A DNA stretch of 64,000 nucleotides. Source: an uncultured Jannaschia sp. Its GTDB lineage: Bacteria; Pseudomonadota; Alphaproteobacteria; Rhodobacterales; Rhodobacteraceae. The translations under genes and the position numbers were made by a program. Location of the stretch: positions 1,231,001 to 1,295,000 of the forward strand of contig NZ_CANNEZ010000001.1 in the NCBI RefSeq assembly GCF_947503795.1, written 5' to 3'. This document shows positions 5,413 through 63,366 of the stretch, piece by piece (position 1 is the first letter of the stretch; each line of letters starts with the position of its first letter). Below the pieces are notes generated by a model. That model ran no database searches, was not told the origin of the DNA, and saw nothing but the letters and a program-made list of their open reading frames with translations.

Positions 5413-6066
5413 TCACCGCGTGGTCTCGGTCAGGCGGCGCGAGACATAGGATTTCACGCTGTCGATCATCGGGTCCATATGCGGATCCTCGAAGAAGTGA
5501 CCGGCGCCCTCCATCTCCTCGTGGGTGATGGTGATGCCCTTCTGCTCATGAAGCTTGTTGACCAGCGTCACAGTGTCGGTCGGCGGCGCGACGCGGTCGG
5601 CGCCTCCGTTGATGATCAGGCCCGAGGAGGGGCAGGGCGCGAGGAAGCTGAAATCGTAGCGATCTGCGGGCGGCGAGACCGAGATGAAGCCCGTGATCTC
5701 GGGGCGGCGCATCAGAAGCTGCATCCCGATCCACGCGCCGAACGAGAAGCCCGCGACCCAGCAATGCTTGGAATTGGGGTTCATCGACTGGAGGTAGTCG
5801 AGCGCGGAGGCGGCATCCGACAGCTCGCCGATGCCCTGGTCGTACTCGCCCTGGCTCCGCCCGACACCGCGGAAGTTGAACCGCAGCACCGTGAAGCCCA
5901 GCGAATGGAACGCGTAATGCAGGTTGTAGACGACCTTGTTGTTCATCGTACCGCCGAATTGCGGATGCGGATGCAGGACGATCGCAATGGGCGCGTCCTT
6001 GACCTTCTGGGGATGGTAGCGGCCCTCGAGGCGGCCCTCGGGGCCGGGGAAGATCACTTCGGGCAT
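5413..6066 (-). CDS. Alpha/beta hydrolase
   Basis: A 217-residue cytosolic alpha/beta hydrolase. The nucleophile elbow is GFSFGAW with S108, the likely acid is the aspartate in NGGADRVAPP, and the likely catalytic histidine is in EGAGHFFED. An early HPHPQFGGTMNN loop is typical of the small dienelactone-hydrolase-like branch common in proteobacteria. The substrate is unknown. The ATG at 6066 has AGGAG at good spacing; a longer frame exists but lacks a better start. It is the first gene of a leftward operon with a small protein and an HD hydrolase, and divergent from iscR. Confidence 0.88.
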   Translation of the reverse strand: MPEVIFPGPEGRLEGRYHPQKVKDAPIAIVLHPHPQFGGTMNNKVVYNLHYAFHSLGFTVLRFNFRGVGRSQGEYDQGIGELSDAASALDYLQSMNPNSKHCWVAGFSFGAWIGMQLLMRRPEITGFISVSPPADRYDFSFLAPCPSSGLIINGGADRVAPPTDTVTLVNKLHEQKGITITHEEMEGAGHFFEDPHMDPMIDSVKSYVSRRLTETTR

Positions 6067-6079
6067 GAAAGCTCCTGCA

Positions 6080-6107
6080 TTGACGGCGCGGGTGGCGGGT
6101 CGATATG
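6080..6107 (+). promoter_or_regulatory. Possible iscR promoter
   Basis: TTGACG (6080-6085), a 16-base spacer and GATATG (6102-6107) lie in the 121-bp gap between the divergent hydrolase gene and iscR, about 80 bases before the iscR ATG. The -10 match is weak. I found no CCGAC-N7-GTCGG palindrome here, unlike the internal promoter in iscS. Confidence 0.3.
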
Positions 6108-6187
6108 TCGCTCGCTCACCGGTGGGCACAGGTAAGCCGCGTCCGCGCCGGGGTCAACGCACAGGGTCTTCGCCACGGGAGGGCGCC

Positions 6188-6646
6188 ATGAAGCTGAGCA
6201 CCAAGGGTCGTTACGCGATGGTCGCCCTCACGGATCTGGCGATGCAGCCCGAAGACGCGCTGACATCGCTGGGCGACATCTCGCGGCGGCAGGATATCTC
6301 GCTGCCCTATCTCGAACAGCTATTCGTCAAGCTTCGGCGCGCAGGTCTGGTCTCGTCGGTGCGCGGGCCGGGCGGTGGTTACCGGCTGGCGCGCGCGCCG
6401 GACGCGATCCGGGTGTCGGATATCCTCGGGGCCGTTGACGAGACGGTCTCCGCGATGGAGACGGGGGCCGGGGCCAAGGGCGGCTCGTCGGGCAGCCGGG
6501 CGCAGTCGATGACGAACCGTCTCTGGGAATCGCTCTCGGCCAATGTCTACGTGTTCCTGCACCAGACGCGGCTGTCGGACGTGGTGCAGAACGAATTGAC
6601 CCCCTGTCCCGCGGTGCCCTCGCTCTTCGAAGTGGTGGACGAGTGA
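6188..6646 (+). CDS. iscR: Rrf2-family Fe-S regulator IscR (single-cysteine type)
   Basis: A 152-residue DNA-binding regulator at the head of the Fe-S assembly operon. The N-terminus MKLSTKGRYAMVAL, the winged-helix region and the wing GPGGGYRLAR are classic Rrf2/IscR. The usual three-cysteine ligand set near residues 92-104 is absent: the segment there reads ETGAGAKGGSSGSR, and the only cysteine is C140 near the C-terminus. A one-cysteine IscR with unusual cluster ligation has been described in Rhodobacter, and this looks like that type. The start has GGGAGG just upstream. It probably controls this operon and iron uptake through the CCGAC-N7-GTCGG sites. Confidence 0.95.
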   Translation: MKLSTKGRYAMVALTDLAMQPEDALTSLGDISRRQDISLPYLEQLFVKLRRAGLVSSVRGPGGGYRLARAPDAIRVSDILGAVDETVSAMETGAGAKGGSSGSRAQSMTNRLWESLSANVYVFLHQTRLSDVVQNELTPCPAVPSLFEVVDE

Positions 6647-6652
6647 CCGCGC

Positions 6653-6701
6653 CGGGGGGCCAGCCCCCCGGACCCCCCGAGGTATTTGAGGCCAGAGGAA
6701 G
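6653..6701 (+). repeat. Interspersed hairpin element, copy 1 (carries an SD-like tail)
   Basis: It begins with the palindrome CGGGGGGCCAGCCCCCCG (6653-6670), continues through CCCCCCGAGGTATTTG and ends in a purine tract (GGCCAGAGGA...). The first ~47 bases differ at only two positions from the copy at 61231-61284. It fills the gap between the iscR stop and the iscS GTG, and its tail supplies the only plausible ribosome binding site for iscS. Confidence 0.9.
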
Positions 6702-6710
6702 GAACCCCCG

Positions 6711-7744
6711 GTGACCGAGCGGGTCTATCTCGACTGGAATGCCACCGCGCCGCTACGGCCCGAGGCACGGGCAGCGATGGTCGCGGCGATGGATGTCGCG
6801 GGCAATCCGTCGAGCGTCCATGGCGAGGGGCGCGCGGCCAAGGCCGTGGTCGAGCGGGCGCGCGCGGAGCTGGCCGAGGCGTTCGGCGCGCAGGCGGCGG
6901 ACATCGTCTTCGTGTCGGGCGCGACCGAGGCGGCGGCGCTGGCGATGGCGGGGCGCGAGCTGGCCACCGCGCCCATCGAGCACGAGGCGGTCGCGGCCTG
7001 GGGCGACGGCGCGCTTGCCGTCGATGCGCGGGGGCAAGTCGCAGTCGTGGACCCGGCCCGGAGCGCGGTGCAACTGGCCAACAGCGAGACCGGCGTGATG
7101 CAGGACCTGGCCGCCGGGCTGGCCGTCAGCGACATGACGCAAGCCTTTGGTAAGGTCCCGGTTGCCTTCGATTGGTCGGGCGTCGAGATGGCGCTGATCT
7201 CGGCCCACAAGCTGGGCGGCCCGAAGGGAATCGGCGCGTTGGTCTTGCGGCGCGGGCTGGACGTGACCTCGCAGATCCGGGGCGGCGGGCAGGAGATGGG
7301 GCGCCGGTCGGGCACCGAGAACATCGTCGGGATCGCGGGTTTCGGGGCCGCGGCCACGGCGGCGGCCTGCGATCTGGCAGACGGGACCTGGGACCGGGTT
7401 GCGGAACTTAGAACTTTTCTAGAAACAAGTCTTGAGGGTGGCGCCAATCCGACTATTTTAGTCGGGAAGGAGTCGCGGCGCCTGCCGAACACCTCTAATC
7501 TCATCACGCCGGGATGGCGCGGCGAGACGCAGGTGATGGCGCTCGATCTTGCGGGGTTCGCCGTGTCGGCGGGCTCGGCTTGCTCGTCGGGGAAGGTGCG
7601 CTCCAGCGCGGTCCTCGGGGCGATGGGCTACGGGCCGGGCGAAGCCGATTGCGCGATCCGCGTGTCGCTCGGGCCCGACGTGACGATGGAACAGGTGGAA
7701 CGCTTCGTCGCGACCTTCCGCCGCTTGAGGGACAGGAGACGGAT

Positions 7745-7748
<4 letters not shown>
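6711..7748 (+). CDS. iscS: Cysteine desulfurase, IscS/NifS type (group I)
   Basis: PLP enzyme that removes sulfur from cysteine for Fe-S assembly. The PLP lysine is K167 in [10 protein letters not shown]; the persulfide-carrying cysteine is C291 in [10 protein letters not shown]. At 345 residues it is shorter than E. coli IscS (about 404). The GTG start at 6711 is preceded by AGAGGAAGGA from the repeat element. Around 7400-7470 the codons become A/T-rich (CTT, AGA, ACT, TTT, CTA, ACA, ATT, TTA), unlike the rest of the gene, and an apparent promoter with a palindromic operator lies there. Its stop overlaps the sufB ATG. A second desulfurase, SufS, ends the operon. Confidence 0.95.
7432..7465 (+). 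promoter_or_regulatory. Internal promoter with IscR/iron-box-like operator inside iscS
   Basis: TTGAGG (7432-7437), a 16-base spacer and TATTTT (7454-7459) form a promoter whose -10 lies inside a perfect 17-bp palindrome, CCGACTA-TTT-TAGTCGG (7449-7465). The palindrome matches the CCGAC-N7-GTCGG sites upstream of the iron-transport gene at 63326-63366. Nearby are two more inverted repeats, TAGAA-N3-TTCTA (7409-7421) and TTTCTAGAAA (7416-7425). It would drive sufB onward. Internal promoters in the Rhodobacter isc-suf operon have been reported, which supports the idea. Confidence 0.65.
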
Positions 7749-9252
<1,504 letters not shown>

Positions 9253-9256
<4 letters not shown>

Positions 9257-62283: not shown

Positions 62284-63291
62284 TCAGCCGTCGAAATCGA
62301 CCTCCTCGACCAGGCGCAGGGCTTCGGCCCGGTGGCTGGCAATCGCGGTCAGATCGGTCGTGTCGGCCTCGAGCGCGCCCCAGCCCGCGACGAGGTCCGA
62401 GGGCGACGCGTCGGGCGATGCGGGGTATTCATGGACCACGTTGGCATAGATCTCCTGCGCTTCGGGCGACGAGAGATATTCCATGAAGGCCAGCGCCTCG
62501 GCCTCGTTGGCGGCTCCGTTGACCATGGCCACGCCCGAGATGTTCACATGCGATCCCTGACCGTCGGCGAAAGACGGAAAGTCGATGCGCACGGCATTCG
62601 CCCATTCTGACTGTTCCTCGTCCGCCAGCATCGCACCCATGTAGTAGGTGTTGCCCAGCGAGATGTCGCATTCGCCGGCCCAGATCGACTTGACCTGCGC
62701 GCGGTCGTTGCCTTCGGGCGATTTCGCGAGGTTCGCTTTCAGCCCTTCAAGCCAGGTCTTCGTGGCCTCGGCGCCGTTATGCTCGATCATCGCCGAGACG
62801 AGGCCGATCGTGTAGACATGCGTCCCCGAGCGGGTGCAGATGCGGCCCGACCAGATCGGATCGGCGAGCTGTTCGTAGGTCGTGATCTCGCCCGGTGCGA
62901 CGCGGTCCTTCGAGGCATAGACGATCCGCGCCCGCGTGGTCAGGCCGAACCAGTGGCCCTCGTCGTCGCGCAGCGCATCGGGGATGTTGGCCTCGAGCAC
63001 GTCCGAGGACACGGCCTGGGTGACGCCCGCCTCCTTGGCCTCGGCCAGCCGCGAGATGTCGACCGTGAAGAGAAGGTCCGCCGGCGAGCGCGGGCCCTCG
63101 GCCACCAGTCGCTCGGTGATGCCCTTATCGATGAAGACCACGTTGGCGGTGTGCCCCGTCGCCGCCTCGAAGCCGTCGACCAGCGGCTGGATCAGCTCGG
63201 GCTGACGATAGGAATAGACGTTGACCTCCCCCGCGAAGACCGGCGCGGCGACGGTCAGGGCAGTGGTGGCGAGAATGGCGTGGCGCAGCAT
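62284..63291 (-). CDS. fbpA: Ferric-iron ABC transporter substrate-binding protein (FbpA/AfuA family)
   Basis: A 335-residue periplasmic binding protein. The signal peptide MLRHAILATTALTVAAPVFA is followed by GEVNVYSYRQPELIQPLVDG. The adjoining tyrosine pair of ferric-binding proteins is present in LGNTYYMGAML. The ATG at 63291 has AAGGAGG at good spacing. No permease or ATPase gene is next to it in the window. Its promoter carries two tandem iron-box-like palindromes. Confidence 0.93.
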   Translation of the reverse strand: MLRHAILATTALTVAAPVFAGEVNVYSYRQPELIQPLVDGFEAATGHTANVVFIDKGITERLVAEGPRSPADLLFTVDISRLAEAKEAGVTQAVSSDVLEANIPDALRDDEGHWFGLTTRARIVYASKDRVAPGEITTYEQLADPIWSGRICTRSGTHVYTIGLVSAMIEHNGAEATKTWLEGLKANLAKSPEGNDRAQVKSIWAGECDISLGNTYYMGAMLADEEQSEWANAVRIDFPSFADGQGSHVNISGVAMVNGAANEAEALAFMEYLSSPEAQEIYANVVHEYPASPDASPSDLVAGWGALEADTTDLTAIASHRAEALRLVEEVDFDG

Positions 63292-63318: not shown

Positions 63319-63366
63319 ACTATTTCCGACTAAATCTGTCGGGTCAATCCCGACTCTTCTTGTCGG
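63319..63366 (-). promoter_or_regulatory. fbpA promoter with tandem iron-box-like operators
   Basis: On the minus strand TTGACC (63347-63342), a 17-base spacer and AATAGT (63324-63319) form a strong promoter. One palindrome CCGAC-N7-GTCGG (63326-63342) lies between -35 and -10; a second (63350-63366) lies just upstream, 24 bases centre to centre. They resemble the predicted Rhodobacteraceae iron box bound by IscR. The -35 overlaps the mazG stop codon. Confidence 0.75.

Follow-up and report, generated by a model that had tools for sequence, protein, structure and literature searches.

Transcription of sufB and the later suf genes in Jannaschia is probably (at about 90%) served by a promoter embedded in the coding sequence of iscS, with an Irr-type box beside its -35 element and an IscR-type operator over its -10 element and start. 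This predicted site occupies positions 7407-7465 of the window (i.e., the whole stretch of 64,000 nucleotides that was analysed). Because its motifs match those of the P3 promoter of R. sphaeroides, we read the inverted repeats at 7409-7425 as an Irr-type box and the whole as the Jannaschia orthologue of P3.

In the working that we propose, transcripts for sufB and the later genes would start from the promoter inside iscS. Irr would sit just upstream of the -35 element, at about -50, and IscR would lie across the -10 element and the start, where it would repress by blocking polymerase. IscR senses Fe-S cluster status and Irr senses haem/iron status, and the supply of suf products would therefore be set apart from that of iscR-iscS. 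The Jannaschia suf promoter would thus be capped, with its level set by Fe-S and haem/iron status together, and expression of iscR and iscS would depend on an upstream promoter in which no iron site can be recognised. We infer that the embedded site works in Jannaschia as P3 does, and that iron sensing enters the Jannaschia operon mainly or only there.

Table 1. Features of the isc-suf locus and of the 63-kb region, in window coordinates
Feature	Position	Strand	Basis or remark
iscR upstream region, without recognisable Irr or IscR box	5938..6187	+	best Irr match has 6 mismatches
iscR, Rhodobacteraceae-type Rrf2 regulator (IscR)	6188..6646	+	first gene of the operon; Pfam Rrf2 PF02082, E 1e-34
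iscS, cysteine desulfurase, host of the embedded site	6711..7748	+	Pfam Aminotran_5, E 1.2e-34
Irr-type box TTAGAACTTTTCTAGAA	7408..7424	+	iscS codons CTT AGA ACT TTT CTA GAA; matches the R. sphaeroides P3 Irr gel-shift site TTAGAAATATTCTAGA
-35-like TTGAGG (TTG core)	7432..7437	+	TTG at 7432-7434
IscR-type operator CCGACTATTTTAGTCGG	7449..7465	+	matches the P3 IscR motif GACTATTTCTGTCGG
-10-like TATTTT, within the operator	7454..7459	+	sequence; P3 has A at -10
Inferred transcription start	7465..7469	+	from the TTG near -34 in P3
sufB	7745..9256	+	NCBIfam SufB NF008773, E 5.5e-275, over cut-off (searched from 7748)
Two IscR-type boxes, promoter of FbpA-like gene (62284-63291, minus)	63326..63366	+	motif matches

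The embedded site and its operon

The genome is 3.46 Mb in size, with the window on its contig 1; the operon runs iscR, iscS, sufB and then more suf genes (Table 1). The iscR product matched the NCBIfam IscR model TIGR02010 at E 4.6e-41, yet under its cut-off (139.8 vs 207.55 bits), and every match of the iscS product to the NifS/IscS models of NCBIfam was also under its cut-off. The ATG of sufB overlaps the iscS stop, and sufB is the first gene that lies entirely 3' of the embedded promoter. Both regulator genes are encoded by this genome: iscR beside iscS, and irr at L177:1444-1869, whose product matched NCBIfam IrrA NF045678 at 197.8 bits vs a cut-off of 150.

The site is read on the sense strand of iscS, before sufB. 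A first-pass annotation, made from the sequence alone, had described TTGAGG-N16-TATTTT, a palindrome at 7449-7465 and two inverted repeats just upstream, and all of these are where it placed them: 16 bases separate TTGAGG from TATTTT, the perfect palindrome CCGACTA-TTT-TAGTCGG covers the -10 element, and the repeats are TAGAA-CTT-TTCTA (7409-7421) and TTTCTAGAAA (7416-7425). It had correctly seen the repeats but missed their Irr-type identity, which is indicated by the R. sphaeroides counterpart TTAGAAATATTCTAGA, reported to bind Irr. The stretch TTAGAACTTTTCTAGA at 7408-7423 has no mismatch to TTAGAA-N3-TTCTAGA, and GACTATTTTAGTCGG at 7451-7465 has none to the IscR core GACTATTTNNGTCGG. About 50 nt separate the Irr-type box from the inferred start, at which the IscR-type box lies. 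A sigma-70 scan of 6000-7800 reported no consensus promoter; promoters of R. sphaeroides are described as having little sequence in common (PMC6956336, in the portions drawn on here).

Within the window, the full 17-mer recurs much more often than chance would allow, with 4 rows at up to 3 mismatches (the site itself on both strands and two 63-kb sites) vs 0.04 expected. The loose form CCGAC-N7-GTCGG exceeds chance only mildly, with 3 in the window vs 0.45 expected (equalled in 2 of 100 shuffles) and 15 sites in the whole genome vs 7 for a reversed control. For the Irr pattern and the IscR core, nothing but the exact matches in iscS is conspicuous genome-wide. No other place in the genome matches TTAGAA-N3-TTCTAGA or GACTATTTNNGTCGG exactly; at up to 2 mismatches, the Irr pattern showed no genome-wide excess (3 forward and 3 reverse vs 7 and 3 in the reversed control) and the IscR core little or none (11 and 9 vs 9 and 5).

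A further claim of the first-pass annotation, that CCGAC-N7-GTCGG recurs twice at an iron-transport promoter near 63 kb, was correct. The two copies, at 63326-63342 and 63350-63366, start 24 nt apart and lie upstream of the minus-strand gene 62284-63291, whose product matched solved FbpA-type ferric-binding proteins (best E 2.7e-99) and no NCBIfam model over its cut-off. We speculate that tandem operators may give tighter repression here than at iscS. A Fur-family regulator gene (L176; 59419-59772, minus strand; Pfam FUR over cut-off), which we take to be Fur/Mur, lies ~2.5 kb from the FbpA-like gene. On contig 2 of the same genome, at ~485.1 kb, there is an Irr-like box of the upstream type, TTAGAACGGTTCCAAA (L323:1501-1516), and a gene for an Nfu-type Fe-S carrier (Nfu_N and NifU domains) has its likely start ~60 nt after it, at 1575 in L323. 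This gene is a possible second Irr target, although such weak matches have no genome-wide excess over the control.

Conservation in Jannaschia and the region upstream of iscR

Between 7407 and 7460, 12 of 18 codons are rare (i.e., make up less than 10% of their codon family in a reference of 10 window genes and 3801 codons), vs 38 of 345 across iscS. When the codon scores of iscS were shuffled 20,000 times, no shuffle gave an equal 18-codon cluster. We then compared the iscS orthologues of all 20 Jannaschia genomes searched, of which the other 19 are 75-82% identical to that of the window. The 20-mer TTAGAACTTTTCTAGAAACA is common to all 20, the Irr-type box TTAGAACTTTTCTAGAA is unchanged in all 20, and a TTG follows four bases past the 20-mer in every case. 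The codons AGA ACT TTT CTA GAA ACA and CTT (7410-7427 and 7431-7433) are invariant. Over windows of 8 scored codon columns, synonymous identity peaked at 1.00 at 7404-7425, vs a maximum of 0.78 elsewhere in iscS (windows not overlapping 7395-7440) and a mean of 0.57. The first-pass annotation had reported a switch in codon choice within iscS, had ascribed it to DNA-level signals overriding codon preference and had proposed excess synonymous conservation in related genomes as a check; the rare-codon cluster and the synonymous conservation bear out both the switch and its interpretation.

The IscR core GACTATTTNNGTCGG is less strictly kept than the Irr-type box in Jannaschia, with at most 1 mismatch in 16 of 20 (exact in 12) and 2-3 mismatches in the other 4. 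In none of the 20 iscS loci is there an Irr match with up to 2 mismatches besides the embedded box. In two of these species iscR lies away from iscS-suf, ~3.5 kb off on the other strand in G016 and on another contig in G011; both retain the 20-mer, and their IscR cores have 0 and 1 mismatches, respectively.

Upstream of iscR, Jannaschia differs from the rest of the family. An Irr box with up to 2 mismatches lies within 250 nt upstream of iscR in 114 of 128 other genera, vs 0.2% of shuffles (which preserved base composition only, not dinucleotides), and in 86 of 89 cases it starts 22 nt past the start of a TTGAC-type IscR box (both scored on the forward strand). This upstream Irr box is still present in two relatives, Kandeliimicrobium (L193) and the genus of L047. 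In Jannaschia, none was found in any of the 20 genomes (17 searched within 250 nt and 3 by a scan of the iscR region). In the 17 loci with the iscR start in the span, the best upstream Irr match has 5 or 6 mismatches and the best P2-type IscR match 4 to 6 (4 in 2 of 17, vs 6% of shuffles). The iscR regions of the remaining three (L352, L353 and L355) hold no Irr match with up to 3 mismatches; L352 and L353 have weak IscR-like matches (3 to 4 mismatches), none of them within 250 nt upstream of iscR. The single Irr-like match of G011 (3 mismatches, ~1.2 kb before iscS) also falls outside the 250 nt upstream of iscR. The upstream boxes thus appear to have been lost in Jannaschia, though other genera lack the upstream Irr box too (14 of 128). 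Of those 14, 13 keep the internal box, and upstream-box absence was not significantly associated with internal-box retention (Fisher p 0.30).

In the window, TTGACG-N16-GATATG stands upstream of iscR at 6080-6107, and several Jannaschia have TTGACG and then GATAA(T) where relatives carry the IscR and Irr boxes. The window element looks like a plain promoter, although it was not picked up by the promoter scan at the thresholds used.

Loss of the upstream operators could mean that iron control of the operon has been lost generally, in which case the embedded site would be an idle leftover of P3 and the isc-suf genes of Jannaschia would be driven constitutively from upstream. The weakened IscR core in 4 of 20 species would fit such decay. 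We consider this unlikely, because the Irr box and TTG core are intact in 20 of 20 species whose iscS has otherwise diverged to the extent given above, and because the two species with iscR outside the operon keep them as well.

Somewhat less probable still is an action in RNA, through a hairpin at 7449-7465 of the iscS-suf transcript that might be a processing site, an sRNA target or an attenuator. RNA fold prediction does give the palindrome a stem of 8 pairs. However, the 86-nt region is no more stable than its shuffles (z -0.42; 62 of 200 as good), and searches of 6000-7800 gave no Rfam match at gathering scores and no terminator-like site. The pairing is also poorly kept: all 14 arm bases of the palindrome are retained in just 7 of 20 Jannaschia, and its 5' flank is not CC in much of the family.

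Family-wide spread and two codes on shared bases

We searched one genome per genus across the family (248 including our own), of which 232 matched at E<=1e-70. The 130 family genomes compared (own included) are the best-scoring of those picked, with a few places on small contigs left out. The Irr box is at the aligned place, with up to 2 mismatches, in 103 of these 130 (98 exact), and the IscR core has at most 1 mismatch in 98. A lower-scoring sample (30 of 80 genomes) had the Irr box in 15 and the IscR core in 13, and 65 titled loci outside Jannaschia, a set that partly overlaps the main family set, had them in 63 and 50, respectively. At the aligned place, both R. sphaeroides P3 motifs recur exactly in Roseibaca (L195), and there is a near match in Cereibacter changlensis (L242). 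The outgroup consisted of the 27 best-scoring loci of 105 matching genomes outside the family (other families of the same class); none of the 27 has an Irr box at the aligned patch, each showing at least 4 mismatches. Horizontal acquisition of an AT-rich patch was rejected, since family members share the patch as an orthologous segment at a single position.

In all 88 genes with both boxes at up to 1 mismatch, the Irr box starts 44 nt ahead of the ACT in the IscR box. A TTG stands 20 nt (55 genes) or 21 nt (20 genes) before this ACT in 75 of the 98 genes with an IscR core, and other offsets from 10 to 37 hold a TTG in 0 to 3 genes each. The TTG occurs in two registers, across codons or as a Leu codon, and it is therefore the DNA word, not the codon, that is kept. 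Because TTG is also present in 18 of the 27 family genes without an Irr box, the promoter seems to outlast the Irr site.

The iscS reading frame divides the box into CTT-AGA-ANN-NTT-CTA-GAA, and Asp can therefore not be encoded at its third codon. Asp nevertheless occupies this position (7413) in most proteins that are free of the box, both in the outgroup (23 of 27) and in the family (23 of 27); among the 103 box-bearing proteins, 88 have Asn and 1 has Asp, where rows were chosen by the box and the amino-acid contrast is thus partly definitional (less so for the outgroup and box-lacking rows). In L228, L234 and L242 the third box codon is GAT, at the cost of one box mismatch. The Arg codon is AGA in 103 of 103 box-bearing genes and CGN in 26 of 27 box-lacking ones, which mostly have CGC (20/27) at Arg and CTG (14/27) at Leu. 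The base after TTCTA differs between the two kinds of box: it is G in 101 of 103 embedded boxes and A in 107 of the 110 Irr boxes upstream of iscR that are within 1 mismatch of TTAGAA-N3-TTCTA. The differing G opens the codon at 7422, where all 27 outgroup proteins have Glu. The box forbids Asp and, at the conserved Glu codon, deviates from its upstream consensus. Each code seems to yield where the other cannot; from the genetic code, we infer that these exchanges were forced.

Five loci (L165, L254, L291, L292 and L222) have an embedded box that ends in TTCTAAA, as in the upstream type, and Lys in place of the conserved Glu. The segment after the box is lengthened in L165 and L222, and L254 is labelled a Sphingomonadales MAG.

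The history of these changes was followed on a tree of 130 rows, built from IscS without the patch and from IscR for the 108 rows where the pattern found it. This tree is poorly resolved, with 16 of 127 inner branches starred, which is too little support to establish the sequence of gains and losses. The Irr box changes 20 times on the best tree, and at least 5 changes are forced by starred branches. Of 5 independent pairs, an average of 3.8 showed Asp together with loss of the box, which is not significant (median p 0.125). Co-loss of the Irr box with irr was tried as functional proof and fails: irr is still encoded in 26 of the 27 family genomes without the box, and box and regulator were therefore not simply lost together. 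At E<=1e-10, 2 of 80 genomes are without irr; one is boxless, and the other (L138, G186) has a box with 1 mismatch. In this single case the right half of the embedded box has changed from TTCTAG to TTCTGG, which looks like the onset of decay. Co-loss with iscR was uninformative, since iscR was found in 80 of 80 genomes.

These comparisons also bear on whether the rare-codon run instead acts as a translational pause in IscS, for folding or ribosome queuing, with the palindromes as a by-product. The density of rare codons (12 of 18), most of them frozen in 20 of 20 Jannaschia, is what a pause might leave. We nevertheless hold it to be very improbable. The family keeps the DNA word while the residues differ (RTFLE in Jannaschia, RNILE in most other members), the TTG falls in two registers, the spacing of the two boxes is fixed, genes that lack the box mostly use CGC and CTG at Arg and Leu, and the site in R. 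sphaeroides is a measured promoter in the account of PMC6956336 drawn on here. Conservation at the protein level only, with RTFLETSL as an important IscS helix, is scarcely credible: R (25/27), L (17/27) and E (27/27) are conserved at the box-encoded positions of outgroup proteins too, but such constraint predicts free synonymous variation, which the 20 Jannaschia contradict, and both the Arg codon and the residue at 7413 follow the presence of the box.

Within the P3-type reading, we tentatively propose a further step for Jannaschia, to which we give slightly less than an even chance. The iron and Fe-S feedback on cluster assembly may have moved wholly into the iscS coding sequence. With the upstream operators lost and the pair inside iscS kept, iscR-iscS would therefore be uncoupled from feedback and the suf genes would remain under it; the box would have cost the enzyme its near-universal Asp, and Glu would have cost the box its consensus A.

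A dual operator that has to spell part of an enzyme as well offers a clean example from nature of two codes on shared bases, and many family genomes are available in which to watch each code yield. It makes testable how far bacterial regulatory DNA dictates protein sequence and whether a feedback loop can survive when all of its operators lie inside a gene. In addition, an in-frame TTAGAA-N3-TTCTAGA within iscS is a cheap marker for P3-type control in Rhodobacteraceae.

Comparison with known systems

In R. sphaeroides, P3 is a promoter inside iscS with a mapped start, lacZ activity and gel shifts with both IscR and Irr (PMC6956336, here and below for the portions drawn on), and it was taken up again in a follow-up, of which we likewise drew on part (PMC7728643). 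Its Irr site, TTAGAAATATTCTAGA, lies ~50 nt upstream of the start and its IscR site, GACTATTTCTGTCGG, at the start, each gel-shifted, with TTG near -34 and A at -10 (PMC6956336). The embedded site is alike in being internal to iscS and before the suf genes, with an Irr-type box ~50 nt upstream, an IscR-type box at the inferred start and TTG near -34/-35. The first-pass proposal of an internal promoter with an IscR-type palindrome over its -10 element thus has a working orthologue in P3.

Another part of that proposal, that sufB onward is induced independently, is not borne out in that form by the same source. IscR represses P3 2.5- to 2.8-fold in both iron conditions, and P3 alone has no significant iron response in the R. 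sphaeroides wild type; under iron depletion, P3 rises significantly (2-fold) only where Irr is missing, and slightly (1.5-fold) where IscR is missing (PMC6956336). Taken together, the promoter, the operator and the codon override of the first-pass interpretation are supported, independent induction as it was phrased is not, and the lack of recognisable operators upstream of iscR in Jannaschia was unforeseen.

P3 of R. sphaeroides adds to the upstream promoters P1 and P2, and P2 bears an IscR box and a predicted Irr box, to which Irr binding was not confirmed in the portions of PMC6956336 drawn on here. In Jannaschia, by contrast, P2-like boxes are not recognisable upstream of iscR. The IscR regulon and Iron-Rhodo-box of Rhodobacteraceae involve a palindromic IscR box over or near -35/-10, as here (Remes 2015, PMC4618611, in part; also Rodionov 2006, via citing papers). 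One IscR target, afuA, encodes an iron-transport binding protein, like the 63-kb gene of the window; the boxes in the part of PMC4618611 drawn on are located upstream of genes, one of them in an operon ahead of RSP_1545, whereas the Jannaschia box is inside a coding sequence. With alphaproteobacterial Irr boxes (Fur family), the embedded box shares the TTAGAA-N3-TTCTA core, which it continues with G where boxes upstream of iscR continue with A. The words 'codon' and 'synonymous' are absent from the text of PMC6956336, and we found nothing on the synonymous conservation, the residue constraint or the loss in Jannaschia in searches of an open-licence library. The promoter class is already known from Rhodobacter and the Jannaschia form is a variant of it; new are the 20-nt invariance, the family-wide aligned Irr box, the Asp/Glu trade-off and the missing upstream Irr box in Jannaschia.
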